From: Rhodothermales bacterium
GTDB taxonomy: Bacteria; Bacteroidota; Rhodothermia; Rhodothermales; JAHQVL01
Assembly (NCBI GenBank): GCA_034439735.1
Contig: JAWXAX010000071.1
Location: 1-32,405, forward strand
Length of the DNA stretch: 32,405 bases
Direction: 5' to 3'
The position numbers and the translations under genes are program-made. A model generated the notes under the pieces. The model was not told the origin of the DNA. It did not search any database and saw only the letters and a program-made list of their open reading frames with translations. Position 1 is the first letter of the stretch. Every line of letters begins with the position of its first letter. Positions 5,602 to 32,405 of the stretch are shown one piece after another.

Positions 5602-5721
5602 CAACACTCCCATGAGTTGCTAACGAGACCTAAACGGGACTATAACCCCACCCACGACCCAAAATGCATGCTCGTCCGCCGGCCCCACCGCGTCCGGTCT
5701 TCCGCGTCGGGGCCGGCGGCG

Positions 5722-6021: not shown

Positions 6022-6034
6022 GGTTATGTTCAGG

Positions 6035-6060: not shown

Positions 6061-6162
6061 TGAACGGAGGTTTTGCGCGGAGGTTGCAGGAACGATATTT
6101 TACATCGGCCCTCCGTAGAAAATCGCTTTCAAGGAGGCCTGCGTCACCATATAGCCATCGCC

Positions 6163-7312: not shown

Positions 7313-7337
7313 GCCCCTCCTCGGATCGAGGAGGGGC
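7313..7337. repeat. 25-bp palindrome, copy 1
   Basis: Arms GCCCCTCCTCG (7313-7323) and CGAGGAGGGGC (7327-7337) flank a GAT loop. The identical 25 bases occur at 7536-7560. It could also end transcription of the NHL gene, although no T-run follows. Confidence 0.85.
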
Positions 7338-7535: not shown

Positions 7536-7560
7536 GCCCCTCCTCGGATCGAGGAGGGGC
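7536..7560. repeat. 25-bp palindrome, copy 2
   Basis: An exact second copy of the 7313-7337 palindrome, in the same orientation (GAT loop), 223 bases downstream. Confidence 0.85.
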
Positions 7561-9690: not shown

Positions 9691-9925
9691 CTCACCCAGC
9701 GGCGCACCCATAAGTGGATTCACGGTTCCGTGAGAAGTTTCTAGCGTACGCCGAGCGTGAAGTGCTACCCGCCGGCCATTGTCCCACGTCCCTGCACCTC
9801 CTCGGCCGGCTACTCTGTCCACGCTATTCGCTGTTGCATTCTAGTCTGGTCCCGGGATTGGTCCGCAGATCCGGGGCCCTTGCTGTTCAGGGTAACGAAT
9901 AGGGCATTCGTACAGGCCTTTTTGC

Positions 9926-10535
9926 TTGCGTCAGCAGTTCGCTGCCTGGTTTCTGGTCATCGTTTGTTTCGCTCCGGCCGCTGTGCTGGCCCAGGGGACC
10001 TCCGCCGAACACGCGGCGGACGACGCGTACTGGGCGCAAAAGGCGCAGGCCTATCCCCCTTTTGAGGTCAACCTGAGCGCGCTGCGGGTGGCCTCGGCCG
10101 GCGAAATGTGCACTCTGGGCCAGTGGGGACCCGTGCTGGAGTGGCCGCACATCCCCGTCACCGCCGCCAATCTACCCGACGGCCGGGTGCTGACCTGGCG
10201 TCGAATGAGGAGGATGCCTTCCCCTCCGGACCCGAATACACCTTTGCCGCGGCCTGGCATCCCGTTTCGGGGACGTTCCAGCTGGTGCCGCACACCTCAC
10301 ACGACATGTTCTGCGCCGGCCAGGTGATGCTGGAAGATGGACGCGTGCTCGTCAACGGCGGGCGCGATACGGTGTCCACGACGAGTTCTTTGATTTTACG
10401 ACCAACACCTGGACCAAAGTCCAGCCGATGAGCAACGGCCGCTGGTACCCGACCTCCGTGGCGCTCGCGATTGGATCGACTTCACCGACGGCGGCGGGGC
10501 CGACGGGCTCGAAGGATCGCAGGTTGGCAGGTTGA
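9926..10535 (+). pseudogene. decayed galactose-oxidase-like (kelch) gene
   Basis: A TTG-started frame has a signal peptide (QQFAAWFLVIVCFAPAAVLAQ) and the propeller entry GQWGPVLEWPHIPVTAANLPDGRVLTW of the glyoxal/galactose oxidase family. Near 10198 one base seems lost: the sequence resumes in another frame as ASNEEDAFP, then EDGRVLVNGGRDTVSTTS. Near 10386 it shifts again to FFDFTTNTWTKVQPMSNGRWYPTSVALA. It then stops in a repeat at 10535. Only about 200 of an expected 600 or more residues remain. Copper-oxidase residues in the C-terminal part are absent, so it cannot be active. Confidence 0.82.
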
Positions 10536-10592
10536 GAACCTGTAACCTGCAACTTGCCAACCTGTAACCTGCAACTTGCCAACCTGTCAACC
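10521..10592. repeat. 22-bp tandem repeat over the DUF427 stop codon
   Basis: The unit beginning AACCTGTAACCTGCAA occurs twice, exactly, at 10537-10558 and 10559-10580, followed by a partial third (AACCTGT). A reversed piece, AGGTTGGCAGGTT, precedes it (10521-10533), making a palindromic cluster. It truncates the galactose-oxidase relic and contains the stop codon of the DUF427 gene (10587-10589). Confidence 0.85.
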
Positions 10593-10868
10593 AATCACTT
10601 CCACCCCTTTCCAGAACGCCACGTAGTCCGTGATTTCGGCGGCGGCGTCTTTGGGGGCTGGGTAGTACCAGGCGGCGGCCTCGTTGGTCTGGCCTTCGAC
10701 GACGAGGTTGTAGTAACTCGCCGAGCCTTTCCACGGGCAGAAGGTTTTCATCGGGTTGAGGCGGAAGTATTCCGAGTGGATCGCGTCCGGCGGGAAGTAG
10801 TGGTTGCCTTCTATGACGATGGTCGCGTCGCTTTCGGCGACGACGGTGTTTTTCCAGATAGCTTTCAT
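10587..10868 (-). CDS. DUF427 family protein
   Basis: The 93 residues match the small DUF427 fold over its whole usual length. They open with MKAIWKNTVVAESDATIVIEG, followed by HYFPPDAIHSEYF, CPWKGSASYYNL and a final DYVAFWKGVEV. The family is a compact beta-barrel of unknown function, common near redox and membrane genes. It lies 88 bases downstream of the four-helix membrane protein, on the same strand, and is probably the last gene of a three-gene operon. Its stop codon lies in a tandem repeat. Confidence 0.88.
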   Translation of the reverse strand: MKAIWKNTVVAESDATIVIEGNHYFPPDAIHSEYFRLNPMKTFCPWKGSASYYNLVVEGQTNEAAAWYYPAPKDAAAEITDYVAFWKGVEVIG

Positions 10869-10956
10869 CTGAGGTACGCCTGGGGATCGTGATGGCAGAA
10901 TGTAAACAGTGGGATATGTGGGATTTCGGTGCTAACGTCGTTTCGGGCGATGCGTT

Positions 10957-11391
10957 TCACCGGCCGGCGGCGAGCGCGTAGGCGAGCAGGCCGGCGCGGA
11001 GGGTCCAGGCGGCCGTGCGGATCCAATTGGTGCGAACGAGTTTGCGGTGGGCGTCGGCGGAGAAGCCGGCTTCGAGGCGGGTGTGTTGCGGCACCTGGAG
11101 GAAGGCCGTGGAGGCCCAGATGACGCCGACGAGCCCCAGGCCGACCCAGAGGAGCTGGGCCGGCACGCCGGCCGGCGGCCGTGCGACAAGCGCAATCGCG
11201 GTCGCCAGTTCGACGGCCATCGGTGGGAAGACGACCCACGTGATGGCGCGTTCGTGGGCGCGCTGGTAGGCGGCAAAACCCTCGCGACCGACCCGGCTAA
11301 AGAGCGGATAATGGACGATCTGGATGACGAGGATGACACCCAGCATGAACCAGGTGACGAAGGCGTTGACGAGCAGAAGATCGATAGTCAT
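10957..11391 (-). CDS. four-helix integral membrane protein
   Basis: This 144-residue protein has predicted membrane helices at about 4-25, 48-69, 80-100 and 126-143. Conserved-looking polar spots are IQIVHYPLFSRVG (residues 23-35) and QVPQHTRLEAGF (99-110), where His, Gln and Arg could form a cofactor or substrate site. I recognise it only as the type of small uncharacterised membrane protein (DUF1772-like in layout) often found with flavin or SDR genes. The ATG overlaps the upstream epimerase stop by four bases, so the two are translationally coupled. Confidence 0.75.
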   Translation of the reverse strand: MTIDLLLVNAFVTWFMLGVILVIQIVHYPLFSRVGREGFAAYQRAHERAITWVVFPPMAVELATAIALVARPPAGVPAQLLWVGLGLVGVIWASTAFLQVPQHTRLEAGFSADAHRKLVRTNWIRTAAWTLRAGLLAYALAAGR

Positions 11392-12803
11392 GAGGGCGAC
11401 GCCGGCGAAAGTGGGATCTGTTGGGGTACGAAGCGGCCGAGTTGATGCCGCAGCGCTGATTCAAGATCCGGGTACTGGAAGATAAATCCGTCGTCGATCA
11501 GGCGTGCCGGCGCGAGGCGCAGGCTTTTAAATAAGGTCTCGTCCGCCATCTGGCCCAGAACGGACAGGGTGAGGGCCGGCGGGATGCGGCCCGCGACGGG
11601 GCGCCGCAGCACCCGCCCGAGCGTCGTCGTGAAGTCGCGCTGGGCGACGGGGCGGGGGCCGACGAGGTTCACCGCTCCTGACAGCGCGCTGTTCATCACC
11701 AGATGGCCGATGGCGTACACCAGGTCGTCCGGCGCGATCCAACTCATGAAGTCGGCCGAACGCCCGACCTGCACGCCAGCGCCCAAGGCGAAGGGCCGGA
11801 CGAGCTGGGCGAGGGCGCCCCCGCGGGGGGTGAGCACGACGCCGATGCGGAGAAGGACAGTTCGAATGCCGGCGGCGGTCGCCGGCGCGGTAGCGCCCTC
11901 CCAGCTTGCACAGACGCGCGCGAGGAAGGTAGCGTCGGCGGTCGGGGTCCGTTCGTCGAGCGCTTCGTCTCCCCGGTCGCCGTAGATGGCGATGCCCGAG
12001 GCCGAGAGGAACGCGGTTGGCGGAGCCTTGAGCCGTGCGAGGGTGTCGGCGAGGAGGTGCGTCCCACGGATGCGGCTCTGCTCGATGCGCGCCCGTTTTG
12101 CGGCGGTCCACCGCAGGGCCACGATGGACTCACCGGCCAGGTGGACGACCGCGTCCAGCCCTTCGAGCTTGCCGGCGTCGATCTCGCCCGTATCCGGGTC
12201 CCAGAAAACCGCGTCCGGCGCGGCGCTACGGCCCCGCACCAGGCGGAGTACCTGATGCCCGCCCGTAGTGAGGAATGCCGTCAGCAGCCGGCCGACCATG
12301 CCCGATGCGCCCGTGATGGCGATGCGGAGGGAGCGGCCGGTGGGGTTGATCGCCTGGTGGACGCGTAGGTCGGTCCGTGTCGTCGCATGGCGGTAGGTGA
12401 ACTGGCTGTCGAGCTGGCGGCGGATGAGGCCGCCGCCGATCCGGTCGCCGAGCCGGCCCAGGGGCAGCTCGTAGCGGAGCGCATCCACGAGCCGGCTCGA
12501 GTTGTCGTCGATGGGCTCCATGTGATGGGTGTGATCCCAGCGGTGAAACGGTCCCGAGCGCTGGATATCGCGGAATTGCCGGCCGGCGACGTAGTCGGCA
12601 TGTTCGGCCACCCAGCGAATCCGGGCCGGCGGCTTCCCGAGCAGCAGCACCGCGCGTTGACCGTCGCGGATGCCTTCGAACGAGGCCAGCGTCACCGGCG
12701 CCCACGGCGGCACCAGGCGCTCGAAGGCGCCCGGACGTTCATGCCAGGCAAAAAGCGCCTCGGCGGAGACAGGCATCGAGCTGGTGTAGGTGCGGTTGGG
12801 CAT
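11388..12803 (-). CDS. SRPBCC domain fused to TIGR01777 epimerase
   Basis: A 471-residue two-domain protein. Residues 1-150 form an SRPBCC (START-like) lipid- or ligand-binding domain (FAWHERPGAFERLVPPW, then HRWDHTHHMEP). From about 160, an atypical short-chain dehydrogenase of the TIGR01777/YfcH group begins with the nucleotide loop ITGASGMVGRLL (Gly165, Gly168, Gly171). It continues with VVHLAGESI, the family-typical RWTAAKRARIEQSRIRGT and SASGIAIYGDRGDE. This fusion is known in cyanobacteria and Bacteroidota. The reaction is unknown; NAD(P) binding is inferred. It is the first gene of the operon with the membrane protein and DUF427. Confidence 0.9.
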   Translation of the reverse strand: MPNRTYTSSMPVSAEALFAWHERPGAFERLVPPWAPVTLASFEGIRDGQRAVLLLGKPPARIRWVAEHADYVAGRQFRDIQRSGPFHRWDHTHHMEPIDDNSSRLVDALRYELPLGRLGDRIGGGLIRRQLDSQFTYRHATTRTDLRVHQAINPTGRSLRIAITGASGMVGRLLTAFLTTGGHQVLRLVRGRSAAPDAVFWDPDTGEIDAGKLEGLDAVVHLAGESIVALRWTAAKRARIEQSRIRGTHLLADTLARLKAPPTAFLSASGIAIYGDRGDEALDERTPTADATFLARVCASWEGATAPATAAGIRTVLLRIGVVLTPRGGALAQLVRPFALGAGVQVGRSADFMSWIAPDDLVYAIGHLVMNSALSGAVNLVGPRPVAQRDFTTTLGRVLRRPVAGRIPPALTLSVLGQMADETLFKSLRLAPARLIDDGFIFQYPDLESALRHQLGRFVPQQIPLSPASPS

Positions 12804-13185
12804 TGGGGGGGAAATGTTTAGGGTTTAAGGATCAAGGTAGGAAGTCGCGGTGTGGACGGCCCTGGCCCTCGGCTCTCGATATGGGACCCAGCGCCGAGTG
12901 GGATCTCAACCTGATAGTTAGCAAGCCGTTTTGGAGGGCGAAATCAGGTCGTAGAGGCCTGGGGTGGTGCGGAGCCGGCCGGGTGGCACGGGCTTTGAAT
13001 TGATTCAGTTACCCATTCGAACCCCACCCTACCCACCACGGAAAGGCGTCTCCCCACCCCGGGACTCTCGCCCACGATTTCATCCACAGGCAGCGGGCTT
13101 CCCATCCGCCCGTGCTCGTGTTAGCCGTCCACCCATCCCACCGGGCGGCGCCGGGCCTCGCTGCCGCGAGCCGAAGCATGTACGC
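12804..13185. other. intergenic region, divergent promoters expected
   Basis: This 382-base gap separates the epimerase operon (minus) from the 185-residue gene (plus). It begins with a TTTAGGGTTTAAGG-type repeat (12829-12842 area), similar to the repeats at other gene borders. Otherwise it is C-rich (ACCCCACCCTACCCACC around 13020-13040). I see no convincing coding sequence, RNA gene or terminator. Confidence 0.4.
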
Positions 13186-13743: not shown

Positions 13744-14262
13744 GGCGGGTGCTAATTGTCTGACAGGTTGAGTGTGCGGAGTATCCGTCGCTGGCTCGGA
13801 AGGCGTGTCGGTTATGCTCTTCCATGGGGTTCTTTGTTGGTGTGGTGGATTTAGGTACACAATTCGAGGAAAACTACTTAATCAGCTGGGGCGTTACATT
13901 ACGACTGCGGTCCCTGTGTAGATATTATGTTATTATCACGTCCCCTCGATGGACAGCGCGCCTCTTGCGCGGCGAATAAACATGTACCCGCGCCGGCTTT
14001 TATCGAAACCGCCTCGTTTGTTTTGCCGGTTACCGTAGCTACGTCTTTCCCGGCATATCCCACCGGTGGCACGGAGTCTCTTACCACTCTATCGATGCTT
14101 CGCACGATAGTTCTTCGGGTATGAAGCTCTCCTGATCGGGTGATTGGCCCTATCGCCGATGCGCCCTGGCCGTTCCCGTTTTCGATCCCTGTCGGGTTCT
14201 GTGTATATTCCAGAGCCGGGCCGTGGACTTCCATGGGCTATTCATTATTCAGGAGAAGATTC
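13744..14262 (+). other. gap before the czc operon, probable promoter region
   Basis: This 519-base gap is less GC-rich than its left neighbour, with AT-rich patches such as TATTATGTTATTATCACG at 13922-13939. An imperfect inverted repeat, ATCGGGTGAT (14135-14144) with ATCGCCGAT (14152-14160), lies about 100 bases before the proposed czcC-like start and could bind a metal regulator or form a hairpin. Short open frames on both strands (for example 13927-14124) have no family look. The left edge of the metal-resistance block probably lies here. Confidence 0.35.
14251..14255 (+). promoter_or_regulatory. Shine-Dalgarno that suggests the czcC-like start
   Basis: AGGAG lies 7 bases before an in-frame GTG at 14263. 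It is one of few good ribosome sites in the window and the reason that start was chosen. A second strong match, AGGAGGT at 14370-14376, has no ATG, GTG or TTG behind it. Confidence 0.5.
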
Positions 14263-15738
14263 GTGGTCACGATTTATTACGCATCATGCTGGGCGCTGTG
14301 TCCTTCTTGGGTACAGGCCTGTAGGCGGAATTCCTCCCTTTTGTCTGCTTCCAGCGAACCACAGATCGCAGGAGGTCGACTCAAACGATCCACCGCAACC
14401 GCCCCGCGCCGCCGAGGAAAGCTTTTTGGGCTCGCCGCGTTAACTTTTTTGGTCGTTACTTCGGCGGCATCCCTGGCGCAAGGGAGCACGCAACTCGTCT
14501 ACCAGGTTTCGGATTTCGATGTGTTGGTGGCGGGAGCTAACACATCCCATTCCTCACGTCCAATAGCCTCCGGGGTAGACACGCTGACGTACGAAACGGC
14601 GCTCGGAAAGGCTCTGGCGTCTAATCCGCGCCTTCGCGCGGCAGCGCTCGAGATTGAAGCGCGTCGCGCCCTAACTCGGCAAGCGAATCGAATATCCAAT
14701 CCGTTTCTGGATGCAGAGGCCGAAAACGTGTCGTCCAATGGTCCCGAGGAAGCGATTACGACGGCCATGCTCGGTCAGCTGGTCGAGCTTGGCGGCGATC
14801 GCCTGGCGCGGCACCGCCTGGCGCGGAGCGAAGCAAATCGCGCGGTTGTAGATGCGGCCATTGAAGCACTCTTTATTCGAGGAATCACCCGCGCTCGTTT
14901 TGCCGAGGCCTCGGCGGCGCAGGCACAAAGCCGGCTTTCCCGAACCCTGCGAGCGCTGGCCGATACGATCCTGGCGGCTACGAGGGAGCAGGTAGTCGCA
15001 GGCGACCGTTCGCCGATCGATCAAACCCGCGCGGAGATTTTACTCGCGGAAGCCCGTACCGAGGTCGACAAGGCGGATGCTGAACAAGGGGCGGCCTATG
15101 CGCGTCTGGCCGCCGTGTGGGGCGCCACACCCGATTTCGAAGCGGTGGCGCCGCTGCCGACGCCCAAACCCATCCCGCCCCTCGATTCGCTCCTGGCCGC
15201 GCTTCCACAAAGTGCGTCGATGGCCGTCTGGGAAGTTGAGGCGGAACGGAGAGCGGCGAATCTGCGACTCGAACAGGCGCGTCGCATACCAGATATCACG
15301 CTCACTGCCGGATATCGGCGCTTCACCGAGACGGGAGATGGAGCCTTAGTCGGCCGTTTGAACCTTCCGATTCCGCTATTTAACCGCAATCAGGGAGGCG
15401 TGGACGCCGCGCGTTTCCGGCTTCTGGCCGTCGAGGCGGATCAAGCGGCGGCCGTCTCGGAAATGCGCGCGGTATTGGCCGAAAGGTATGCCGCCATCAC
15501 GTCCGCGTACACCGAAGCCGAGGCGCTCCGAATCGAGGTGATTCCGCGCGCCACGGAAGTAACCGAGCGCATCGAAGAAGGTTATCGCGCGGGACGGTTC
15601 TCGTTGCTCGATTTACTCGATGCGCAGCGCACCCTGACGGCCGCCAGCGCACGCTATCAGGAGGCCCTCGCGCGGTATTACATCACGGCGGCCGACATTG
15701 AGCAGCTTACGTCACGCCCCCTAGAACCGATCGAATAG
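14263..15738 (+). CDS. czcC: outer-membrane efflux protein (CzcC/TolC type)
   Basis: The protein is a TolC-fold channel subunit of an RND efflux complex. After a signal-like helix (KLFGLAALTFLVVTSAASLAQ, about 60 residues from the chosen start) come two OEP repeats. The first starts DTLTYETALGKALASNPRLRAA, with LVELGGDRLARHRLAR. The second shows RIPDITLTAGYRRFTETGDGALVGRLNLPIPLFNRNQG and ends with AGRFSLLDLLDAQRTL, the typical late coiled-coil tip. The start is uncertain: GTG 14263 has a ribosome site but leaves a long N-terminal extension before the signal peptide, whereas a rare start near 14340-14390 would fit the family better. It is the first gene of czcCBA, 5 bases before the adaptor gene. 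Confidence 0.88.
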   Translation: MVTIYYASCWALCPSWVQACRRNSSLLSASSEPQIAGGRLKRSTATAPRRRGKLFGLAALTFLVVTSAASLAQGSTQLVYQVSDFDVLVAGANTSHSSRPIASGVDTLTYETALGKALASNPRLRAAALEIEARRALTRQANRISNPFLDAEAENVSSNGPEEAITTAMLGQLVELGGDRLARHRLARSEANRAVVDAAIEALFIRGITRARFAEASAAQAQSRLSRTLRALADTILAATREQVVAGDRSPIDQTRAEILLAEARTEVDKADAEQGAAYARLAAVWGATPDFEAVAPLPTPKPIPPLDSLLAALPQSASMAVWEVEAERRAANLRLEQARRIPDITLTAGYRRFTETGDGALVGRLNLPIPLFNRNQGGVDAARFRLLAVEADQAAAVSEMRAVLAERYAAITSAYTEAEALRIEVIPRATEVTERIEEGYRAGRFSLLDLLDAQRTLTAASARYQEALARYYITAADIEQLTSRPLEPIE

Positions 15739-15743
15739 CGGCC

Positions 15744-20533
<4,790 letters not shown>

Positions 20534-20552
20534 GCAGTTGATCCCACGGCCG

Positions 20553-20640
20553 TCAGCGACCTCTGTTTCCACACCTAATAGAGAGCCAGTATCACGAATA
20601 GCGTCAGCGCCGCCGCAGAGACCACGCTAAGATATCTGAA
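20553..20640 (-). pseudogene. relic of a cusA-like 3' end
   Basis: Read on the minus strand, the codons give VSAAALTLFVILALY, a stop, then VWKQRSLTAVG. The intact cusA gene ends [25 protein letters not shown]. That is 16 identities in 25 aligned positions, and the DNA similarity (for example CTGTTTCCACAC and AGCGTCAGCGCCG shared) continues through the stop, so homology is not chance. Only the last helix and tail survive. The upstream part (HHENAAFRYL) no longer matches. It lies 20 bases past the czcA stop. Confidence 0.7.
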
Positions 20641-20719
20641 AGCGGCGTTTTCGTGGTGATACGAGGACGTAACGACTCAAAAAACTCAGGAGATGTTCAT
20701 TTAGCGGGTTGCTACGCCT

Positions 20720-20768
20720 ATGTCGTCCAAACTCCACGCCGTTAAATGGCACCGACTCGGCCAGCGCC
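20720..20768 (+). pseudogene. relic of the 5' end of the ferric-reductase-like gene
   Basis: An ATG opens the peptide MSSKLHAVKWHRLGQR. The intact gene at 31563 opens MSPKTYTIKWHRLSER. Over 49 bases, 38 are identical, including TTAAATGGCA. After this point the similarity is lost and the frame ends about 26 codons later. It is on the plus strand like its intact partner. The remaining bases of 20641-20849 show no other gene. Confidence 0.65.
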
Positions 20769-20849
20769 CAGACGCAAAGCGCTTGGATGACGACGACCCT
20801 GTGTGCTTGGTGAGCCCCGCATTCAACACATCCATCGGACTACTTTGAT

Positions 20850-21857
20850 ATGGAAACGAAGGCAGAAAATGTGTCACGTCGTGCCCCCGATAAGAAAAAT
20901 ACCCCCTCCTGGTCGCCATTAAAACGAGGCGAGCAGGTCGAGGTACGCGGCGCCGCAGAGATACTTGCGACCCTGGATGGCGAAGGAGTGCTCGATGATC
21001 TTCCTTTCATGCCGGAAATGATCCCGTTCATCGGTAAGCGGTTCACCGTTTCGAGGCGTATCGAGAAAACGTGTCTGGACTATCCTTCGCAAACATTCCG
21101 GCGTTTCCAACACAACGATGTTGTCTTCCTTGAGGCCTTGAGATGCTCCGGAGAAGCACATGGAGCGTGCCAGCGGGGGTGCATGATCTTCTGGAAGGAG
21201 GCCTGGCTACGAAGAGTTGATGACGCGGAAGAAACCGTTCGCGTCGAGCAACAGGACGCGCTCAGCATACTCGAATCCCGGCTAAAAACGCGCGCTCAGG
21301 GGGACGTCTTTATCTGTCAATCGTCAAGGCTCGAACGGGCTACGGAGCACATTCCGCCAGTAGACCGGGTTATGGTCAGCGTTACGGAAATCCGGAACGG
21401 CAACCGAAAGGTCTTCGAAGTACTGGGGATGTTCGTTCGCACGGCGTTCTGGAAGATGCGCGGTAAACTCCTGGGCACCCACCCCAAAGGAACGCTCGGA
21501 AAAACGCCTACGGAAGCCGTGAATCTGCAGCCAGGCGACTGGGTGGAGGTAAAATCGTACGAAGAAATTTACACAACTCTCGATGCCAGGGGCCGAAATC
21601 GAGGGATGAAATTCGATCTGGACATGCGCTTTTTTTGCGGGGAACGTCACCGGGTTTCGCGGCGCCTTGATCGCATGATTCGAGAAGACACCGGCGAGAT
21701 GCTTCACCCTCAAAATACAGTGCTACTCGACGGCGTAAACTGCCAGTGCATCTTTGCAACGGGCGGATGCCCCAGGGCGGAGGCTTTTTATTGGCGAGAA
21801 ATCTGGTTGAAACGGGTCGGCGACCTCCCCGGGCAAACAGACCACGACCGTTCCTGA
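20850..21857 (+). CDS. uncharacterised protein with two copies of a Cys/His-containing domain
   Basis: This 335-residue soluble protein (no signal or membrane helix) contains one domain twice. Copy 1 (about 26-123) runs RGEQVEVRGAAEILATLD, then FTVSRRIEKTC, VVFLEALRCSGEAHGACQ and WKEAWLRRV. Copy 2 (about 228-323) runs PGDWVEVKSYEEIYTTLD, HRVSRRLDRM, VLLDGVNCQC, GGCPRA and WREIWLKRV. Copy 1 has Cys75, Cys99, His104, Cys107 and Cys111, a plausible metal or iron-sulfur site. Copy 2 keeps Cys298 and Cys307 but lacks partners of Cys75 and Cys111. The linker (124-227) is basic. I have seen similar unnamed proteins in biosynthetic clusters but know no function. It lies between two metal pumps, convergent with cusA. 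Confidence 0.82.
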   Translation: METKAENVSRRAPDKKNTPSWSPLKRGEQVEVRGAAEILATLDGEGVLDDLPFMPEMIPFIGKRFTVSRRIEKTCLDYPSQTFRRFQHNDVVFLEALRCSGEAHGACQRGCMIFWKEAWLRRVDDAEETVRVEQQDALSILESRLKTRAQGDVFICQSSRLERATEHIPPVDRVMVSVTEIRNGNRKVFEVLGMFVRTAFWKMRGKLLGTHPKGTLGKTPTEAVNLQPGDWVEVKSYEEIYTTLDARGRNRGMKFDLDMRFFCGERHRVSRRLDRMIREDTGEMLHPQNTVLLDGVNCQCIFATGGCPRAEAFYWREIWLKRVGDLPGQTDHDRS

Positions 21858-21919: not shown

Positions 21920-24900
21920 TTAGCTGTTTCCCGGCGCGGGCGGTTGCCGCACGCTCGGGAGCGACCGCTGTTTCCACACAAAATAGATCGCCGGTATTAC
22001 AAGCAGCGTCAGCGCCGTCGACGAAATCATTCCTCCCACCATTGGAGCGGCGATGCGCTTCATCACCTCGGAGCCGGTGCCGATGCCCCACATGATGGGG
22101 AGCAAGCCGGCCATGTCCGCGACGACTGTCATCATTTTGGGCCGTATGCGCTCGGCGGCTCCGTGTAATACGGCTTCGTAGAGATCGGAAACCGTGTTCA
22201 TCGCACCCCGCGCGACGCGTTCTCTATAGGCCTGATCCAGATACACGAGCATGATGACCCCGGTCTCGGCCGCCACGCCCGCGAGGGCAATAAAACCCAC
22301 GCCAACGGCCACGCTCAGGTTATAGTCGAGCAAGTACACGAACCAGATCCCTCCGACCAGCGCAAACGGCAGGGAAAGCATGACGATCAGGCTCTCGCCG
22401 ATCCGCTTAAAACTCATATATAGCAGGGCGAAGATGATGAGCAACGTGAACGGGATCACGATCTGCAAGCGCTCTCGCGCGCGCACCATATACTCGTACT
22501 GCCCGCTCCATTCCAGGCTGTATCCGGCGGGCAGCGTCACGCCCTGCGAAACGGCCTCGCGCAAGCGGGCCACCAGCGAGCCAATGTCCGACTCGCGCGT
22601 ATCGACAAACACCCACGACGTACTGCGGGTATTCTCGCTTTTGATCGCCATGGGGCCCTTCTCGAACGAGTAGTCCACCACGTAACGTAGCGGGATCTGC
22701 GCGCCGGCCGGGGTGGGGATCAACACGCGATGCAAGGCGGTCAGGTTGTCGCGCAGCTCCCGGCTGTAGCGCACGCGCACGTTGTAGCGTTCGAGGCCCT
22801 CAACGGTCTGCGTCACCGTTATGCCGCCGATAGCCGTCTGTATCACGTCCTGGACGTCGCCCACGGTGAGGCCGTACCGCGCCGCCTCGTCGCGTTTAAT
22901 GCGGTAGTCCAGATAGTTGTCGCCGACGGTTTTCTCCGGGAACGCCGTCGCCACCCCGGGCACCGTCCGGGCGACGGCGGCGGCCCGTTCGCCGAGGTCG
23001 GCGAGAACCTCAAGATCTGGCCCCATAATTTTTATACCCACCGGCGTGCGGATGCCCGTGGAAAGCATATCGATGCGGGTTTTGATCGGCATCGTCCACG
23101 CGTTGGTGAGCCCTGGAATCACAATGGCGGCGTCCATCTCCTCCACGAGCCGCTCGACCGTCATCCTCTCGCGCCATTCGGACTCCGGTCGGAGTGTGAT
23201 GATCGTCTCCATCATCGAGAGCGGGGCCGCATCGGTGGCCGTTTCGGCGCGGCCGGCCTTGCCGAGCACATGGCTCACTTCCGGAAAGGCGCGGATGATC
23301 TGGTTGGTTTGCTGCAAAATCTCGCGGGCTTTGGCGACGCTCAGACCCGGATCGGTGGTAGGCATATACAGCAGATCGCCTTCGTTGAGGGGCGGCATGA
23401 ATTCCGAACCGAGCCGGAGTAGCGGATACGTGGTCAATCCGAGGGCAAGTAGGGCCAGGCCGATCGTCATCTTCCGGAAGCGGAGCACGAGGCGGATCGC
23501 CGGCGTGAAGAGCGCGATGAGCACCCGGTTGAGAGGATTTTTGTCTTCACGCGGGATCTTGCCGCGGATGAGGTACCCCATGAGGACGGGCACGACGGTC
23601 ACGGCGAGCAGGGCCGCCGCGGCCAATGCGTATGTTTTGGTATAGGCGAGTGGCTCGAAGAGGCGCCCCTCCTGGTCTTGCAAGCTGAAGACGGGCAGGA
23701 AGGAGAGCGTAAGTACGAGCAGGGAGAAAAAGAGGGCGGGGCCGACCTCACGCGAAGCGTCGAGGATGATGCGCCAGTGGTCTTTTTTTCCGGCGTCGCG
23801 CTCCAGGTGTTTGTGCGCGTTCTCCACCATGACCATGGCGGCATCCAGCATGGCGCCGATGGCGATCGCGATGCCGCTCAAGGACATGATGTTGGCGTTT
23901 AACCCCTGCGCGTTCATGATGAGAAAGGCCAACAACACCCCCATGGGTAGGGTAAAGATGGCGACGAGCGCGCTGCGCACGTGGAGCAGGAACACGATCG
24001 TGATCAGGGCGACGATCAGGCACTCCTCGATGAGCGTCCGCGTGACGTTGTCAATGGCGCGTTCGATGAGTCCCGAACGGTCGTACGCCGTATGAATCGT
24101 TACCCCCTCGGGAAGGCCGGCCTTCAGTTCCTCCAGCTTTTCCTTCACCGCTTCGATGGTAGCCAGCGCGTTTTCCTGGTAGCGCATGACGACGATGCCG
24201 CCCACCGTCTCGCCCTCGCCATTCCATTCCAGCACCCCGCGGCGGAGTTCGGGGCCGATGTGTACGTCGGCCACGTTCCGGATGAGCACCGGCGTACCGT
24301 TCCGGTCGGCGCCCAGGGGGACGTTTTCGATGTCCGCGATCGAGGCGAAGTAGCCCAGGCCTCGGACCATAAACTCCGTTTCGCCCAGCTCTACCACCCG
24401 TCCCCCGACATCGTTGTTGCTCCGCTTGAGCGCCGAGACCACCGTGGCGATCGGGATGTTGTAGGCCAGGAGCCGGTTTGGGTCCACATCTACCTGGTAC
24501 TCCTTCACAAAACCGCCGATGCTGGCCACTTCAGCGACGCCCGGCACACTGGTCAGCGGGTAACGCAGGTACCAGTCCTGAATCGAACGGAGCTGCTGAA
24601 GGTCGTACCGGTCGCCGCCGTCGAGCACATACTCGTACACCCAGCCGAGACCGGTGGCGTCGGGCCCAAGGGTGGGCGTTACACCGGCCGGCAGGCGATT
24701 GGAGGCGGTGTTCAGGTATTCGAGAACGCGGCTCCGTGCCCAATAGATATCCGTTCCATCTTCAAAAATGACATAGATGAACGATGAACCGAAGAACGAG
24801 TAACCGCGGACGACTCGGGCTTTGGGAACCGCCATCATGGCGGTCGTGAGCGGATAGGTGACCTGATCTTCGACGACGCGGGGCGCCTGGCCCGGGAATT

Positions 24901-25054
24901 CGGTGTACAGGATGACCTGGACGTCACTCAGATCCGGGATGGCGTCGACCGGTGTCCGCCACATCGCCATCGCGCCGGCGACAGCCAGGAGGAAGGCGAA
25001 AAGCAGCACCAGGACTCGGTGGGTGATGCAGGTTTCAATGAGGCGTTCGATCAT
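21920..25054 (-). CDS. cusA: RND pump, HME4 class (CusA type, copper/silver)
   Basis: A 1044-residue heavy-metal RND pump. The fourth helix reads AIAIGAMLDAAMVMVENAHK (397-415; Asp404, Glu411), the HME4 pattern of Cu(I)/Ag(I) exporters and different from the HME1 motif of czcA. Methionines used by CusA to relay Cu(I) have likely counterparts in EFMPPLNEGDLLYMPTTD, LSMMETIITLRPE and the strongly conserved RIDMLSTGIRTP. The N-terminal TPVDAIPDLSDVQVILYTEFPGQAP (34-58) is also CusA-like. It takes copper or silver from the periplasm or CusB and expels it through the outer-membrane channel. It is the last gene of the array, 42 bases after cusB, and converges with the Cys/His protein gene. Confidence 0.96.
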   Translation of the reverse strand: MIERLIETCITHRVLVLLFAFLLAVAGAMAMWRTPVDAIPDLSDVQVILYTEFPGQAPRVVEDQVTYPLTTAMMAVPKARVVRGYSFFGSSFIYVIFEDGTDIYWARSRVLEYLNTASNRLPAGVTPTLGPDATGLGWVYEYVLDGGDRYDLQQLRSIQDWYLRYPLTSVPGVAEVASIGGFVKEYQVDVDPNRLLAYNIPIATVVSALKRSNNDVGGRVVELGETEFMVRGLGYFASIADIENVPLGADRNGTPVLIRNVADVHIGPELRRGVLEWNGEGETVGGIVVMRYQENALATIEAVKEKLEELKAGLPEGVTIHTAYDRSGLIERAIDNVTRTLIEECLIVALITIVFLLHVRSALVAIFTLPMGVLLAFLIMNAQGLNANIMSLSGIAIAIGAMLDAAMVMVENAHKHLERDAGKKDHWRIILDASREVGPALFFSLLVLTLSFLPVFSLQDQEGRLFEPLAYTKTYALAAAALLAVTVVPVLMGYLIRGKIPREDKNPLNRVLIALFTPAIRLVLRFRKMTIGLALLALGLTTYPLLRLGSEFMPPLNEGDLLYMPTTDPGLSVAKAREILQQTNQIIRAFPEVSHVLGKAGRAETATDAAPLSMMETIITLRPESEWRERMTVERLVEEMDAAIVIPGLTNAWTMPIKTRIDMLSTGIRTPVGIKIMGPDLEVLADLGERAAAVARTVPGVATAFPEKTVGDNYLDYRIKRDEAARYGLTVGDVQDVIQTAIGGITVTQTVEGLERYNVRVRYSRELRDNLTALHRVLIPTPAGAQIPLRYVVDYSFEKGPMAIKSENTRSTSWVFVDTRESDIGSLVARLREAVSQGVTLPAGYSLEWSGQYEYMVRARERLQIVIPFTLLIIFALLYMSFKRIGESLIVMLSLPFALVGGIWFVYLLDYNLSVAVGVGFIALAGVAAETGVIMLVYLDQAYRERVARGAMNTVSDLYEAVLHGAAERIRPKMMTVVADMAGLLPIMWGIGTGSEVMKRIAAPMVGGMISSTALTLLVIPAIYFVWKQRSLPSVRQPPAPGNS

Positions 25055-25096: not shown

Positions 25097-26413
25097 TCAG
25101 TGCAGGTGCGAAGCGCCGGCATCGGTGGACGAGGCGGTGTCGCGCGGGGCCGATCGCAGGCGCGCGATGGCCTCTTGCAACCGGCTCTCGCTATCGAGCA
25201 GGAACTGCGCGGAGATGACGACTTCCTCACCCTCCACGAGGCCCGAAAGGACGCGGACGAGGGTGGGGTGGGCGTCACTTTCCTGGCCGAGTTCGACCTC
25301 GCGCGGCTCGAAACTCCCTACATCGCGCCGGACGAATGCGATGGCGCGTGCGCCGGAGCGCAGGATGGCCTCGGACGGCACGACAAGCGCATCGGGAATC
25401 GCGACGCCTTCGATCTGGACGTTGGCATACATGCCCGGCATTAGCGAGCGATCTGGATTGGGAACGACGATACGCACCTGGACGTCGCGGGCAACCTCAC
25501 CCAGGGTCGGATAGATGTAGGCGATGCGTCCCGGGTACGAGCGGCCGGGGAAGTAGGCCAGGGTGATCGCCACAGGCTGGCCCACGCGGATCCAGGGGAG
25601 TTCGTTTTCGAAGAGGCTGGCGTTTACCCACACGTCGCCGAGGTCGGCGATCTGGAAGAGATTGGCGCCGGCCTCGATGTAAGCCCCTTCCACTACGTTT
25701 TTCTCGATGACCACCCCGTCCGCCGCTGCGAGCAGGGGAAGGGTCTTTCGAACCTCTCCCGTCTCGGCGAGTCGATCGATATATTGAGAAGGGATGTCCC
25801 AGTATTCAAGTCGTTTGCGCGCCGAGGCGAGCAGCTGCGCGGCGTCCTGCCGGAGGTAGTCGGGCGCACCGACAGGCAACGCCCGTTCATGTTGCATTGC
25901 GAGAACGAACTCGTTCTGGGTAGCGACGAGTTCAGGGGAATACAGTTCGAGCAGCGGCCGGCCCTTCTCCATCTGCTCGCCAACGGACTCGACATGCAGG
26001 CGCTCGATCCAGCCCGATAGCTTGGTGGTTACCTGGTGGAGACCTTCCTGGTCGTATTCGACCGATCCAACGGCTCGAATCGTCCGTGAAAAGTCGGTAC
26101 GCGTCACGGTGACCGTCCGCACGTTCATGTTTTGAACGACTCGGGGATCGATCGAGACCAGCGTCCCCTCGGGTTGCTCCAACTCATCTTCGTAGACCGG
26201 GACGAGATCCATGCCCATCGTCGATTTGCCGGGGCCGTCGTAGAGGGTATTCGGGTCCATCGGATCCCACCAGTAGGCGATGGGCCGATCCGGCTCCGGG
26301 GCGGGAGGGCGGCTCGGTAGGATCATGGACTGGTGCCGCCCGAGTTGATAACCGGCGAACGCCAGGAGCAAGGCGGCAACCAGGGCGAGGACGATCGCGA
26401 GGGGCTTTTTCAT
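25097..26413 (-). CDS. cusB: RND periplasmic adaptor (CusB type)
   Basis: A 438-residue adaptor. Residues 1-25 anchor it to the membrane. Residues 45-75 carry the CusB-type heavy-metal-binding segment YWWDPMDPNTLYDGPGKS, followed by TMGMDLVPVYEDE. It has methionines and no cysteines, as in Escherichia coli CusB, and fits Cu(I) capture. The barrel-sandwich (LSGWIERLHVESVGEQMEKG and LLAAADGVVIEKNVVEGAYIEAG) and the beta-barrel (VWVNASLFENELPWIRVGQPVAI) follow. The C-terminal end is DAGASHLH. The gene overlaps the upstream channel gene by 4 bases, so the two are co-translated. Confidence 0.94.
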   Translation of the reverse strand: MKKPLAIVLALVAALLLAFAGYQLGRHQSMILPSRPPAPEPDRPIAYWWDPMDPNTLYDGPGKSTMGMDLVPVYEDELEQPEGTLVSIDPRVVQNMNVRTVTVTRTDFSRTIRAVGSVEYDQEGLHQVTTKLSGWIERLHVESVGEQMEKGRPLLELYSPELVATQNEFVLAMQHERALPVGAPDYLRQDAAQLLASARKRLEYWDIPSQYIDRLAETGEVRKTLPLLAAADGVVIEKNVVEGAYIEAGANLFQIADLGDVWVNASLFENELPWIRVGQPVAITLAYFPGRSYPGRIAYIYPTLGEVARDVQVRIVVPNPDRSLMPGMYANVQIEGVAIPDALVVPSEAILRSGARAIAFVRRDVGSFEPREVELGQESDAHPTLVRVLSGLVEGEEVVISAQFLLDSESRLQEAIARLRSAPRDTASSTDAGASHLH

Positions 26414-27747
26414 GGGATGATACCGGAAAGCGGCGTACGACGGATCACCGCCGCGCGCGTTTCGAGGGAAACGGTTCCGAGGACGCGTTCGAGGACGGCA
26501 TACGCCAGGAGGTAGTCCACGAAGGTTTCTTCGTAGGTGACGCGAAGACCGAACGACGCACGTTCAGCTTCCAGGAGATCGAGAAACGAAGCACTGCCGG
26601 AGGAATACCCGGTTAGCGCGGCCTGCCGGGTAGCTTCGGCTTGCGGTAAAAGGGCATTACGCAGAAGCGCAAGCTGGTTGTTATGTTGCTCAATCTCATG
26701 CAAGGCCTCGTCGAGGTGGGTTTCGATCGCGATCGTCACGGCTTCCGCCTGTGCCCGAACACGGGAGCTTCCCAGCCGTGCTTCTTGCAGGCGAGCGCGA
26801 ATACGGCCGCGCTGGATCGGCAGGACAGCCGTGACGCCCAACTCAAGCGCATCCCTTCCCATGGCGCCCGGCGGGTCCGCCGCCGCCGCGATATCGAAAT
26901 AGGTGACGACGACGCCCAGTTCGGGCAGCGCCGTGCGTCGTGCGAGTTCGACGGCTTTGAGGGAACGTCGTTCGGCGGTTGCAATGGCGCCAACTTCGGG
27001 CCGCAGGGCACGAGCCAGCACAAGCAGGGAGTCCCTCGGCGGCAGGGGAGGAGGCGGATTCGGCTGGGCGGTCCCCTGTGGGGCGGCCGGGCTATTTGAG
27101 AGCCGGCGCAGGGTCTCGCGTGCGGCCAGCGCTTCGTGTTCCAGCGTGTAGCGGCGCGTGTTCAGCGACGCGCGCTCGAGTTGCGCCTGCAGGATGGCCT
27201 GTTGGGAGCCGCGGCCGGCTTCATACAGCGCGCGGGCCGTGCCCTCGAACGCCCGGAGACGGACCGTGAAGTCGTCGATAAGCGGGAGCAGCTGTTGCGT
27301 GCGATACAGGGTGAAGTAGGCGCGTTTCAGGTCCAGCCCGAGGTCGAGCGCCAGGGTCCGTGTCTCGTCGGCGGCAATGGAGGCCTCGAGATCGGCGAGA
27401 TCACCCAGCACCCGCCTCGTCCCGGGGTATGGCACCGCCTGTTCGATGCGCCACTGACTGCGCTGCGCGCCGTGCGCCGTCAGCATGGGGTAGGGCTGAT
27501 AGGCCACCATCGCCATGGGGTCCGGCCACGCTGTCACCTGGCGCCGGCGGGTGCCAAGCGCCTCGGTTTCGATCCAGTGGGCGGTTAATTCAGGATTGCC
27601 GGCTTCCAGGGCTCGAAGCAAATCGGCGAGATCCAGGACGGCCGAGGTATCGGCGGGCGGCTCTTGCGCCGTCAGAGAAGCGGGCGCAAGTAGGGCCCAT
27701 AGCGGCACGAGCCACCATAGGGAGGGGAAATAACGAGGCATGGCCAT
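26410..27747 (-). CDS. cusC: outer-membrane efflux protein (CusC/TolC type)
   Basis: A 445-residue channel protein with a signal peptide (about 1-28, ending LTAQ). The first OEP repeat begins LDLADLLRALEAGNPELTAHW and contains QAVPYPGTRRVLGDLA. The second has LARRTALPELGVVVTYFD and ends with the tip motif SGSASFLDLLEAERASFGLRVTYEETF. Residues 78-90 are methionine- and proline-rich (DPMAMVAYQPYPML), which occurs in CusC-type proteins of Bacteroidota. It would form the exit channel of the Cus complex. A proline run near residue 230 (PNPPPPLPPRD) links the repeats. Confidence 0.9.
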   Translation of the reverse strand: MAMPRYFPSLWWLVPLWALLAPASLTAQEPPADTSAVLDLADLLRALEAGNPELTAHWIETEALGTRRRQVTAWPDPMAMVAYQPYPMLTAHGAQRSQWRIEQAVPYPGTRRVLGDLADLEASIAADETRTLALDLGLDLKRAYFTLYRTQQLLPLIDDFTVRLRAFEGTARALYEAGRGSQQAILQAQLERASLNTRRYTLEHEALAARETLRRLSNSPAAPQGTAQPNPPPPLPPRDSLLVLARALRPEVGAIATAERRSLKAVELARRTALPELGVVVTYFDIAAAADPPGAMGRDALELGVTAVLPIQRGRIRARLQEARLGSSRVRAQAEAVTIAIETHLDEALHEIEQHNNQLALLRNALLPQAEATRQAALTGYSSGSASFLDLLEAERASFGLRVTYEETFVDYLLAYAVLERVLGTVSLETRAAVIRRTPLSGIIP

Positions 27748-28382: not shown

Positions 28383-29015
28383 TCAGGCCCGTGTGCCTTT
28401 TACGACCACAAACGCGCCCGTGCCGTAGCCATTCACCACCGGATCCGGGTGGTCCATGGTCTCGGCGTCTCGGAAGATCGTTTGAACAAACTGAAGCGGC
28501 GTGAAGCCGGCCGCAAACAGATGCCTGGCCACTTCATCGACCGCGTGGAAGTGCGCGTGCCGATAAAACAGGCTCTCGTTCTTCCGCAACTCGTACTCCT
28601 TACCCAACGAACTCGCACGATCGATAAATCCAACCACGATACAACCGCCCGGGCGAATCACCCGGTGCGCTTCCTGGAAAGCCTGGTCGATGTCCTCTAC
28701 AAAACAGATCGTCGTAACCATGAGGACACCGTCGAACGAGTGATCCGGGAAGGGGAGGGCCTCCGCGGTGCCATCCAGCACTTCGATACCACGTTCCAGG
28801 GCAATCGCCCGCATTGCCGGCGAGGGCTCCACCCCGAGTTGGATGCCCAGCGGCGCCGCGAACCGGCCGGTGCCGACGCCGACCTCGACAAACTCGCCCG
28901 TCGGGGGTAGCAATTCACGGACGGCTTCGATCTCCGAAGCATACGCGTAGGGGTGGGAAGTAAACCAGGCGTCGTACAGGGCGCTTCGCTGCTCAAACGG
29001 ATTTACATCTGGCAT
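28383..29015 (-). CDS. class-I SAM-dependent methyltransferase
   Basis: A 210-residue Rossmann methyltransferase. Motif I is VEVGVGTGRFAAPLG (43-57), the acidic post-I end is LGVEPSPAM (60-68), motif II-like ALPFPDHSFDGVLMVTTICFV spans 86-106, and RVIRPGGCIVVGFIDR spans 117-132. It belongs to a subgroup with FYRHAHFHAVDEVARHLFAAGF near 149-170. The substrate is unknown. No arsenite-methyltransferase cysteines are present, so an ArsM role is unlikely. It sits between copB and the cus genes in the same direction, which suggests a role in the metal response, but that is inference. Confidence 0.85.
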   Translation of the reverse strand: MPDVNPFEQRSALYDAWFTSHPYAYASEIEAVRELLPPTGEFVEVGVGTGRFAAPLGIQLGVEPSPAMRAIALERGIEVLDGTAEALPFPDHSFDGVLMVTTICFVEDIDQAFQEAHRVIRPGGCIVVGFIDRASSLGKEYELRKNESLFYRHAHFHAVDEVARHLFAAGFTPLQFVQTIFRDAETMDHPDPVVNGYGTGAFVVVKGTRA

Positions 29016-29038: not shown

Positions 29039-29119
29039 CTATTCAGGCTGAGAATGCCTTCGGTCGATCAGTGCGTTGACCAGAGAAGCGACTTCGGGCA
29101 GTCGTCGGGGCAAGGTCAT
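29039..29119 (-). CDS. possible 26-residue peptide coupled to copB
   Basis: The ATG overlaps the TGA stop of copB (ATGA), and the frame runs 26 codons (MTLPRRLPEVASLVNALIDR, then RHSQPE) to a TAG, ending 23 bases before the methyltransferase start. Coupled start and position argue for translation. There is no homology I can recall. It may instead be a relic of a larger gene or a leader that couples copB to the methyltransferase. Confidence 0.3.
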   Translation of the reverse strand: MTLPRRLPEVASLVNALIDRRHSQPE

Positions 29120-31188
29120 AGTTGCTCCCTTTTGAGAAGCTGAGCGTTGATCGCCACGACCACAGTACTCGCGGACATCAATACCGCGCCCACGGCCGGA
29201 GTGAGAAGGATACCCCACGGGGCAAGCACGCCAGCCGCCAGGGGAATGGCGAAGATGTTGTAACCCGCCGCCCACCAGAGGTTCTGGAGCATCTTCCGGT
29301 AGGTCGCGCGGGACAACGCGACGATCTTCGGGATGTCGCGCGGGTCGGATCGTACCAGCACGATGTGACCGGCCTCCACGGCGACATCGGTGCCGGCGCC
29401 GATCGCGATCCCGATATCGGCGGTGGCCAGGGCCGGGGCATCGTTCACGCCGTCACCCACCATCGCGACTTTCTTTCCCTGATTCTGCAGCTCGCGTACC
29501 TTGGCGGCCTTGTCCTCGGGCAGGACCTGCGCGAACACGGTGTCGATGCCCAGTTCAGCGGCGACGGCATCCGCGACGGCTTGTGCGTCACCGGTGAGCA
29601 TGGCCACTTCGATTCCTCGAGCGTGCAGCGCGCGAATAGCCTCGCGGCTCTCCTCGCGGATAGCGTCCGCTACGGCGAATACCGCCAGTGCCTTGCCGTC
29701 TCTGATCAGATAAATGGCGGCCTGCCCTCGGCTGGCCGCCGCGTCGGCGGCGGCGCGAAGCGTGTCCGACACCTGGGCGTTCTCTGCCTTGAGGAGCGCG
29801 GGGCCGCCCATATGATACTCAACGCCTTCGACCGATGCGGCAACACCCTTCCCGGTCACGGCCCGGAATCCGTCCGATGGCGGCACGTCGAGCGTGCGTT
29901 CTATCGCCGTCTTTACAATGCCACGAGCGATCGGGTGTTCGGACTCCGACTCCACTCCGGCCGCGATACGGAGCAAGTTCTCGTCGGACTCCCCGTCGGC
30001 CACCGACAGCTCTACCACTCGGAACTCTCCCAATGTGAGCGTTCCGGTCTTGTCGAAAATCACAGTATCCAGGTTTCTGGCTTCTTCCAGCCCGCGCCGA
30101 TCCCGCACGAGCAGGCCATTGCGCGCGCCCAGGGTCGTGGAGATGGCGACAACCAGCGGCACGGCCAGGCCGAGAGCGTGTGGACAGGCGATCACCAGGA
30201 CCGTCACCATACGAATGATGGAGAAGTCGATCGACGCACCGAGGAAATACCACACCACCCATGTGACCGCGCCGGCGACGATGGCCACCCCGGTCAGGGT
30301 CCTGGCCGCCCGGTCGGCCAGATGCTGGGCCCGGGATTTTGATGTTTGCGCGTCGGCCACGAGCCGCATAATGCCTGAAAGCTTGGTCTTTTCACCGGTG
30401 CCGGTGACCTGAATGCGCAGAGAACCCTCCCCATTGACGGTCGCGGCGATGACGGCGTCGCCCTCCCTCTTTTTTACCGGCCTGGACTCGCCAGTAATAA
30501 AGGCTTCGTTGAGATCGCTCGTCCCTTTCTGGACGAGGCCGTCCGCTGGCACGCTCTCGCCGGGGCGGACCAGCACGATATCACCCTCCCGCAGCTCGCT
30601 GACCGGGACGGTCTCTTCACCCTGCTCTGAGATTCGAGTCGCGGTGTCCGGGAGTAACTTCGCGAGTTCCTGGAGCGCACCCTGTGCCTGTGAGATCGAG
30701 CGCATCTCGATCCAGTGGCCCAGCAGCATGATGGTCACCAACGTGGCCAGCTCCCACCAGATGGCATCCGCTCGAAGGAAACCGAGCTGGACCACCCACG
30801 AGAAAAGGAAAGCTACCGAAATGGCGAGGGAGATGAGGGTCATCATCCCTGGCAGTCGCGCCTTCAGCTCGCGCCATGCTCCTTTCAGAAAGACCAGGCC
30901 GCCGTAGAAAAAGACGGCCGTGCCGAGGACAGGCGATATCCACGTAGATCCGGGGAACGCGGGCGCCTCGTAGTGAAAGATCATCTGGATATGCGCTGCC
31001 CAGAGGACGACCGGAACGGAGAGGAGCAGGGAGAGCCAGAACTTGTCACGAAACATCTCCGGGCTGTGACCTGCATGCTGGTCGTGGCTTTCATGACCTT
31101 CCGACGTCTTCTGGTGCCCGCCAGGCTCCTTGCCGCCGGCGGGCGGCGCGACGTGATGGCTATGATCGTGGTGGCTGTTTGGGTTCAT
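29116..31188 (-). CDS. copB: P1B-3 copper ATPase (CopB type)
   Basis: A 690-residue copper-exporting P-type ATPase. The N-terminal 45 residues are His-rich (SHHDHSHH, HESHDQHAGH), the usual metal-binding region of CopB. TGES is at 232-235 and the membrane metal motif CPH is at 335-337; CPH defines P1B-3 and goes with Cu(II), Cu(I) or Ag(I) export. DKTGT is at 379-383, and HP of the SEHPIARG nucleotide site and GDGVND are present. It moves copper from the cytoplasm to the periplasm, where the downstream Cus system can take over. A very good ribosome site precedes it. It is the first gene of the minus-strand array. Confidence 0.95.
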   Translation of the reverse strand: MNPNSHHDHSHHVAPPAGGKEPGGHQKTSEGHESHDQHAGHSPEMFRDKFWLSLLLSVPVVLWAAHIQMIFHYEAPAFPGSTWISPVLGTAVFFYGGLVFLKGAWRELKARLPGMMTLISLAISVAFLFSWVVQLGFLRADAIWWELATLVTIMLLGHWIEMRSISQAQGALQELAKLLPDTATRISEQGEETVPVSELREGDIVLVRPGESVPADGLVQKGTSDLNEAFITGESRPVKKREGDAVIAATVNGEGSLRIQVTGTGEKTKLSGIMRLVADAQTSKSRAQHLADRAARTLTGVAIVAGAVTWVVWYFLGASIDFSIIRMVTVLVIACPHALGLAVPLVVAISTTLGARNGLLVRDRRGLEEARNLDTVIFDKTGTLTLGEFRVVELSVADGESDENLLRIAAGVESESEHPIARGIVKTAIERTLDVPPSDGFRAVTGKGVAASVEGVEYHMGGPALLKAENAQVSDTLRAAADAAASRGQAAIYLIRDGKALAVFAVADAIREESREAIRALHARGIEVAMLTGDAQAVADAVAAELGIDTVFAQVLPEDKAAKVRELQNQGKKVAMVGDGVNDAPALATADIGIAIGAGTDVAVEAGHIVLVRSDPRDIPKIVALSRATYRKMLQNLWWAAGYNIFAIPLAAGVLAPWGILLTPAVGAVLMSASTVVVAINAQLLKREQL

Positions 31189-31562
31189 GGGGGTCGCCTC
31201 CTCAATCGTGAATGACAGGCCTTATGCATCCAGGGAGGAGACACATTGTGTCCGCGCAACCCTGATTGTCGGGAAAAAATGTCATACGGCTTTACTACAG
31301 GCATACTACTGAACATCTTATCGAAATGGAACAGCGGCAGGTGACGGAATCAAGTCGGGTACCCTGACAGGGAGCGGTTATTGGATGACACTGGCCAAGA
31401 TTCCCGGCGATGTGCATGCGAGGCGGCGGCCGCGCAGCTCTCTCCTATGGTGGGGGGGAGTCGTTCAACTCGTGTCGCCGTATATTGAATCGCCCCGAGT
31501 TTTCGGAGACCGGGTTATCCGAGAAATACCTCTCGAGCCCAGCAGTTCGCAGTCCCATACCC
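31189..31562. promoter_or_regulatory. divergent control region of copB and the ferric-reductase-like gene
   Basis: This 374-base gap must hold the promoter of the copper array. It contains GACACA-T-TGTGTC (31240-31252), a perfect palindrome 52 bases before the copB ATG. It also has a direct repeat TACTAC at 31293-31298 and 31304-31309, spaced 11 bases, about one helix turn, and flanked by ACAGGCA. Either could bind a copper-responsive regulator; none is encoded in the window. The open frame from 31385 to 31588 looks non-coding. Confidence 0.4.
31197..31203 (-). promoter_or_regulatory. strong ribosome binding site of copB
   Basis: GAGGAGG on the minus strand lies 8 bases before the copB ATG. 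Most neighbours, including czcB, czcA and cusA, lack such a site. Confidence 0.75.
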
Positions 31563-32240
31563 ATGTCGCCGAAAACCTACACCATTAAATGGCATCGACT
31601 GAGCGAGCGCCTGCTTTGGCACCATCTACCATTAGCGGCGCTTTCGAGCATTGCGACAGCGCTCTGCTACCAGTGGGTCGCCTCGAAGGATGTTATCCAC
31701 AATTGGAGCATGGCGACGGCATATCCGTGCCTGGCGCTCCTGGCGGCCACGCTCGTGACGGGCCCGTTGATGGTGCTCCGCGGGAAGAGGCGCCCGGTGT
31801 CCAACGATCTCACGCGCGACATCGGGATCTGGGCGGGGGTTTTAAGCTTCCTCCACACAATTTTCGGCCTCCAGGTGCATTTCCGGGGCCGGATGTGGCT
31901 GTTATTTGTCCCGGACGCACCGATGGCGTTCCCTTTTCTCCGGCTTGATCTATTTGGCATGGCCAACTACACCGGCGTGATCGCTGTACTCGTCGTTTTG
32001 ATGCTTTTGGGCTTGTCGAACGACTGGTCGCTGCGCAGGCTAGGGGTATCGACCTGGAAGAGATTACAACGCTGGAATTATGCGCTGTTCGGATTAGTCG
32101 TGGTACACGGTATCCTGTACCAGATCCTCGAAAAACGAGCGTTCCCTTTTGTTGTGCTATTCGCCGCGATGGGGTTGTGCGTGATCGTGCTGCAAGTGGC
32201 CGGCCGGCGCCGGGTTATGCGGGCGATTCGCGGATGGTGA
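31563..32240 (+). CDS. ferric-reductase-like transmembrane haem protein
   Basis: This 225-residue membrane protein resembles the ferric-reductase-like transmembrane domain (YedZ/MsrQ group). Helices lie at about 22-40, 53-72, 88-105, 136-152, 173-190 and 195-212. Candidate haem-ligating histidines are His98 and His106 (LHTIFGLQVHF) in one helix and His182 (VVVHGILY) in another, as in these b-type cytochromes. No FAD/NADPH domain is attached, so it needs a partner. The frame is open upstream to 31410, but the ATG at 31563 is supported by the homologous relic start at 20720. It is divergent from copB and may adjust the redox state of copper or methionine in the envelope (inference). Confidence 0.82.
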   Translation: MSPKTYTIKWHRLSERLLWHHLPLAALSSIATALCYQWVASKDVIHNWSMATAYPCLALLAATLVTGPLMVLRGKRRPVSNDLTRDIGIWAGVLSFLHTIFGLQVHFRGRMWLLFVPDAPMAFPFLRLDLFGMANYTGVIAVLVVLMLLGLSNDWSLRRLGVSTWKRLQRWNYALFGLVVVHGILYQILEKRAFPFVVLFAAMGLCVIVLQVAGRRRVMRAIRGW

Positions 32241-32405
32241 TCCACACCAAGCGGTAAAACATCAATGTGAAGCGATTATATCAAAACAAAACATAGGACG
32301 GAGATTTACTAAGTATCATCACGGTAAATCCGTTGAATGGCTGCGACGACCGTTCAAGGTTAGAGGCTGAGGGAAGCCACATTAAACCTTGAGAAACTGT
32401 TGAGA
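32241..32405. other. window end, no feature seen
   Basis: The last 165 bases are AT-richer than the rest and hold no open frame, RNA gene or terminator that I can support. Confidence 0.4.

Follow-up and report, generated by a model that had tools for sequence, protein, structure and literature searches.

The copper block and its neighbours

The window analysed here, which is the whole stretch of 32,405 nucleotides, carries a czcCBA cluster on the plus strand (14140-20533), then an orphan gene and then a copper block running from cusA to FRE, as assigned with Pfam. The czcA-type RND pump gene of the first cluster (17306-20533, plus strand; ACR_tran) is intact and is the left neighbour of the relic described below. 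The orphan gene (20850-21857, plus strand) separates the relic from the intact block and encodes a protein of 335 amino acids with no Pfam family above the cut-off. The genome holds one partial paralogue of this gene, on contig C217, and the orphan protein shows an internal duplication, its residues 16-105 and 213-275 both matching the same stretch of that paralogue. The protein was not found in the 113 other genomes of the order that were searched.

The left end of the copper block is an intact cusA on the minus strand (21920-25054; ACR_tran), with homologues in the order at 70-75% identity. On the same strand it is followed by cusB (25097-26413; HlyD_D23 and HMBD), cusC, encoding an outer membrane factor (26410-27747; OEP), a methyltransferase gene (28383-29015; Methyltransf_11) and a copA-like P-type metal ATPase gene (29116-31188; E1-E2_ATPase), the last of which has a 72% homologue in another genome (G006). 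The right end is formed by a plus-strand gene for a ferric-reductase-like membrane protein, here called FRE (31563-32240), for which the Pfam match to Ferric_reduct is weak (24.1 bits against a cut-off of 28).

The contig ends at 32405, 165 bp past FRE and inside a dispersed repeat, and a further copy of the orphan gene is not seen beside the block. The last 98 bases (32307-32405) are one end of this repeat, begin CTAAGTATCATCACGG and recur at or near the ends of about 10 contigs with 94-100% identity; this repeat adjoining FRE is probably the edge of a transposable element. The left contig end (1-107) is likewise occupied by a dispersed repeat, of which the genome carries about 30 partial copies (77-94% identity). 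Elsewhere in the window, an exact 25-base direct repeat (7313-7337 and 7536-7560) lies just downstream of a second P-type ATPase gene (7604-9532, minus strand), and a phosphotransferase-like gene (2892-4004, minus strand) contains an imperfect 42-base palindrome (2904-2945, 88%) in its 3' end.

Gene remnants between czcA and the orphan gene

The gap between czcA and the orphan gene holds a piece of a cusA 3' end on the minus strand and a piece of an FRE 5' end on the plus strand. When positions 20301-21000 were compared by BLAST with the whole 32,405-nt window, a cusA core at 20555-20615 matched 21960-22020 (61 bp, 82%, E 1.1e-11) and 20717-20768 matched 31560-31611 in FRE (52 bp, 77%, E 1.0e-5), both on the same strand as their targets and both inside 235 bp. 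Tblastx joined the two pieces with a sum E-value of 8e-12. In local alignments against 300 shuffles the cusA relic scored 87 (shuffle maximum 39) and the FRE relic 58 (maximum 34 for the local region and 53 for the whole window).

A gapped alignment carries the cusA relic leftwards to 20534, the first base past the czcA stop codon, and the relic as a whole can be placed at 20534-20624 on the minus strand. Identity over 20542-20624 is 62/83, or 75%. The homology breaks off sharply at 20624, with only 2 of the 15 following bases matching; a 7-base run at 20641-20647 keeps the same offset as the alignment and is too weak to use. The relic translates as VSAAALTLFVILALY*VWKQRSLTAV, aligned to the tail of the local cusA. 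A derivation from czcA was considered and rejected, as that gene lies on the opposite strand and cusA matches better.

The FRE relic (20717-20768, plus strand) has an ATG at 20720 followed by 16 open codons, after which the homology ends, again sharply, at 20768. Its translation, MSSKLHAVKWHRLGQR, aligns to MSPKTYTIKWHRLSER of the local FRE and, counted from the ATG, 10 of 16 residues are identical in frame and 11 differences fall in 49 bp. Divergence is thus alike in both relics (25% over 83 bp for cusA and 22% over 49 bp for FRE). The differences are spread over codon positions 1, 2 and 3 as 9/3/9 in the 83 bp of cusA and 7/1/3 in the 49 bp of FRE, counts that are too small for a rate test.

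The cusA relic bears an in-frame stop where homologues mostly have Tyr. We examined sites at codon positions 1 and 2 at which the local base is common to at least 83% of the homologues in the order, and all four differences found there lie on the relic branch (S to A, T to A, P to L and I to L). The situation is reversed at a fifth site, where the local cusA has T and the majority base, the A of a Tyr codon that now reads TAG, survives in the relic. Retention of a majority base lost by the local gene makes the relic a sister of that gene and not a recent copy of it. The in-frame stop, the truncations and the relic-branch changes at conserved sites are the marks of a pseudogene; judged by its sequence, the cusA piece is the end of a dead gene, which was sister to the present cusA and has decayed.

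Between the two relics lies a 92-bp spacer (20625-20716) whose similarity to the cusA side and to the FRE side does not rise above chance, and an 81-bp stretch (20769-20849) separates the FRE relic from the orphan gene with nothing above shuffles. Compared with the block on both strands, neither stretch aligned locally better than shuffles did, and anchored extension into the spacer gave p = 1.0 from the cusA side and 0.45 from the FRE side. We saw no sign of a functional element around the relic, where a promoter-like site was absent and terminators were at chance level; Rfam gave 0 hits within the window.

The earlier note, made from this DNA, had placed two relics beside the intact block in the block's own order and orientation, and self-BLAST, shuffles and tblastx bear this out. 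Its right limit of 20640 for the cusA relic has to be moved back to the point where the homology stops, and its figure of roughly 80% identity describes the two cores well but is too high for the longer cusA alignment. The alignment check that it proposed also went in its favour, in that neither fragment matched another locus better than the intact block.

Closest relatives of the two pieces

The comparison drew on about 114 genomes of the order, two of them from the same family and none from the same genus, and on sets of 29 cusA homologues from the order (70-75% identity) and 18 database relatives of FRE. Within its own genome the cusA relic had no better match than the local cusA and, conversely, a whole-genome search with the cusA 3' end gave a next-best match of 31 bits against 61.7 for the relic. 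Outside the genome the best blastn match of the relic was 76% over 42 bp. Over a conserved stretch of 54 nt it is 74% identical to the local cusA and at most 69% identical to any of the other 29 homologues of the order. Relic and local gene share the tail VWKQRSL..V where homologues in the order mostly have YLWKS or similar; the nearest tail among the 29, FLWRQRSLPEV (L068), means that this feature is not wholly private.

For FRE, the N-terminal KWHRL occurs in the relic and the local gene only, among the 18 database relatives. A search of the genome with the FRE 5' end gave a best other match of 28 bits against 41, a weak control in that the search missed the known relic, presumably on account of its short longest exact run, and further FRE scraps may exist elsewhere. 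Both pieces are therefore closest to the local block, in a comparison that held no genome of the same genus. Relatives of FRE itself are mostly from Acidobacteria, at about 50%, with one from a Draconibacterium MAG, the best at 43-56% identity; matches in its own order and phylum are weak (23-39%) and a plasmid collection yielded relatives at 31-41% only. The FRE gene (31563-32240) is accordingly a candidate for horizontal transfer. The relic arrangement was absent from the other FRE-bearing loci.

Searches for further remains added little. When the window proteins were compared with the window, the sole relic-like match among those listed was the known one at 20545-20625, the others being expected paralogues (czc against cus subunits and the two P-type ATPases). 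Tblastx of the intergenic DNA against the fetched loci gave only weak, short matches. No intact second block was found at the relic site among the roughly 114 genomes of the order, none of which belongs to the same genus; the two genomes of the same family are without a close cusA, czcA or copA. In one genome from another family of the order (G107, contig C45), czcA (3563-6721, plus strand) faces cusA (9889-12993, minus strand); this locus (L100, 854-15518) has czcCBA convergent with cusABC, and three unrelated genes (radical SAM, D-Ala-D-Ala-ligase-like and cyclase-like) between them. Another genome, G003, has copA followed by cusCBA. FRE stood at the end of a block of the copA-cusCBA type in none of the relatives, and in a close form it was found nowhere else in the order.

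Origin of the remnants and comparison with known systems

We propose that the gap at 20534-20849 quite probably preserves what remains of another copy, sister to the copper block or at the least to its two ends; the order and strands of the two pieces, which are those of the block's two outer ends, support this reading. In such a scheme, a sister block would once have lain between czcA and the orphan gene; as a redundant copy it would have been inactivated and its function lost, and successive deletions would then have stripped away almost the entire copy, selection allowing them to reach the two flanking genes but not to enter them. The leftovers, some 90 bp from the 3' end of cusA and some 50 bp from the 5' end of FRE, would have drifted since. 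That the FRE similarity starts almost at the ATG would be expected if an unconstrained upstream stretch had faded. Homologous recombination between two complete tandem copies would leave a single clean copy, so the short edges seem to speak for illegitimate deletion. The FRE relic is truncated at its 3' side too, which one internal deletion does not explain; at least two deletions, or an FRE that was already truncated, would be needed.

Against a lost sister copy it can be said that at least two deletions are required, that the codon-position spread in FRE is odd, on tiny numbers, that spacer and tail match nothing, and that the interior genes leave no trace, with no convincing match to cusB, cusC, the methyltransferase gene or copA in 20534-20850. 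The earlier note had seen here a collapsed copy of the whole block after one internal deletion. The pieces do come from close relatives of the block's two outer genes, but loss of a whole block goes beyond the data and the one deletion does not suffice; the presence of an interior (cusBC, methyltransferase and copA) in the lost copy and the number of deletions are what we infer. The lost copy could have arisen by duplication in place or could have been an older or separately acquired sister block.

One variant is that an older resident cusABC faced czcA with FRE beside it, and that the intact block came later or is a sister that evolved separately. The czcCBA cluster facing cusABC in the other family of the order makes an older cusA beside czcA plausible, and the majority base retained by the relic and the absence of any remaining interior gene of the block would both fit; the relic FRE, however, is close only to the local FRE, with no close form in relatives from the order, from which it follows that both copies probably came from a recent common source. 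We regard this variant as possible, though doubtful. Another possibility is that template switching during DNA repair wrote two short patches, from source sites 1.4 kb and 10.8 kb from the relic, and that the block was never duplicated. The pieces are short, their inner ends are sharp and the DNA between and to either side of them is without a match, all of which such an event could produce, but a random patch would take no account of gene features such as the ATG, where the FRE similarity begins, the cusA piece holds a majority base that is missing from the local gene, and the identity of the pieces as block ends in the right order is explained less well. We consider template switching improbable.

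It is similarly improbable that two independent gene scraps from related clusters arrived separately. In favour of such a history, metal genes form a patchwork in this region and dispersed repeats lie at both contig ends, but the pieces share the order and orientation of the block, show similar divergence and are both nearest to the same local block. The least probable explanation, to which we give very little credence, is that the FRE match is due to chance and that the cusA relic alone is real. Its E-value of 1e-5 applies to 700 bp against 32 kb and becomes about 1e-3 by our scaling to the genome; its score is nevertheless above all 300 shuffles, the residues agree in frame from the ATG and the best other match in the genome is lower, weak as that control is. 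A decayed sister copy is therefore the reading that we retain, and the case is most likely one of ordinary genome decay that happens to be unusually legible.

As such it is a fossil, still readable, of how copy number turns over in a metal-resistance region, in which a related copper block would have been carried twice, or replaced, and then lost. It points to no new mechanism or function; it may prove more widely useful as a model case for searches of intergenic DNA that look for paired fragments from the edges of adjacent clusters. We found nothing specific in the literature on edge relics of copper blocks. The earlier note knew of no description of such a process, yet internal deletion after large duplications has been described (PMC3857721), so the claim to novelty fails and the locus clearly exemplifies a kind already known. 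Duplicates usually end with one copy deleted or inactivated (PMC3857721), and intergenic pseudogene remains are standard in decaying genomes such as those of Sodalis and Buchnera (PMC3091646).

Set beside cusCBA/copA and czcCBA clusters, the intact neighbours are ordinary members, and G003 too has copA with cusCBA after it, whereas the FRE gene at the right end, with no close form elsewhere in the order, is where this block departs from them. The described cases of segmental duplication with internal deletion (PMC3857721) are alike in having two copies, one of which is internally deleted and degenerating; here, in contrast, only edges survive, at a divergence of about 20-25%, and that a duplication took place is itself inferred. 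With the pseudogene remnants of Sodalis and Buchnera (PMC3091646) the relic shares short coding remains that are recognizable by comparison only but, unlike those, it consists of two remains from both ends of one nearby cluster, and the lost unit can therefore be guessed.
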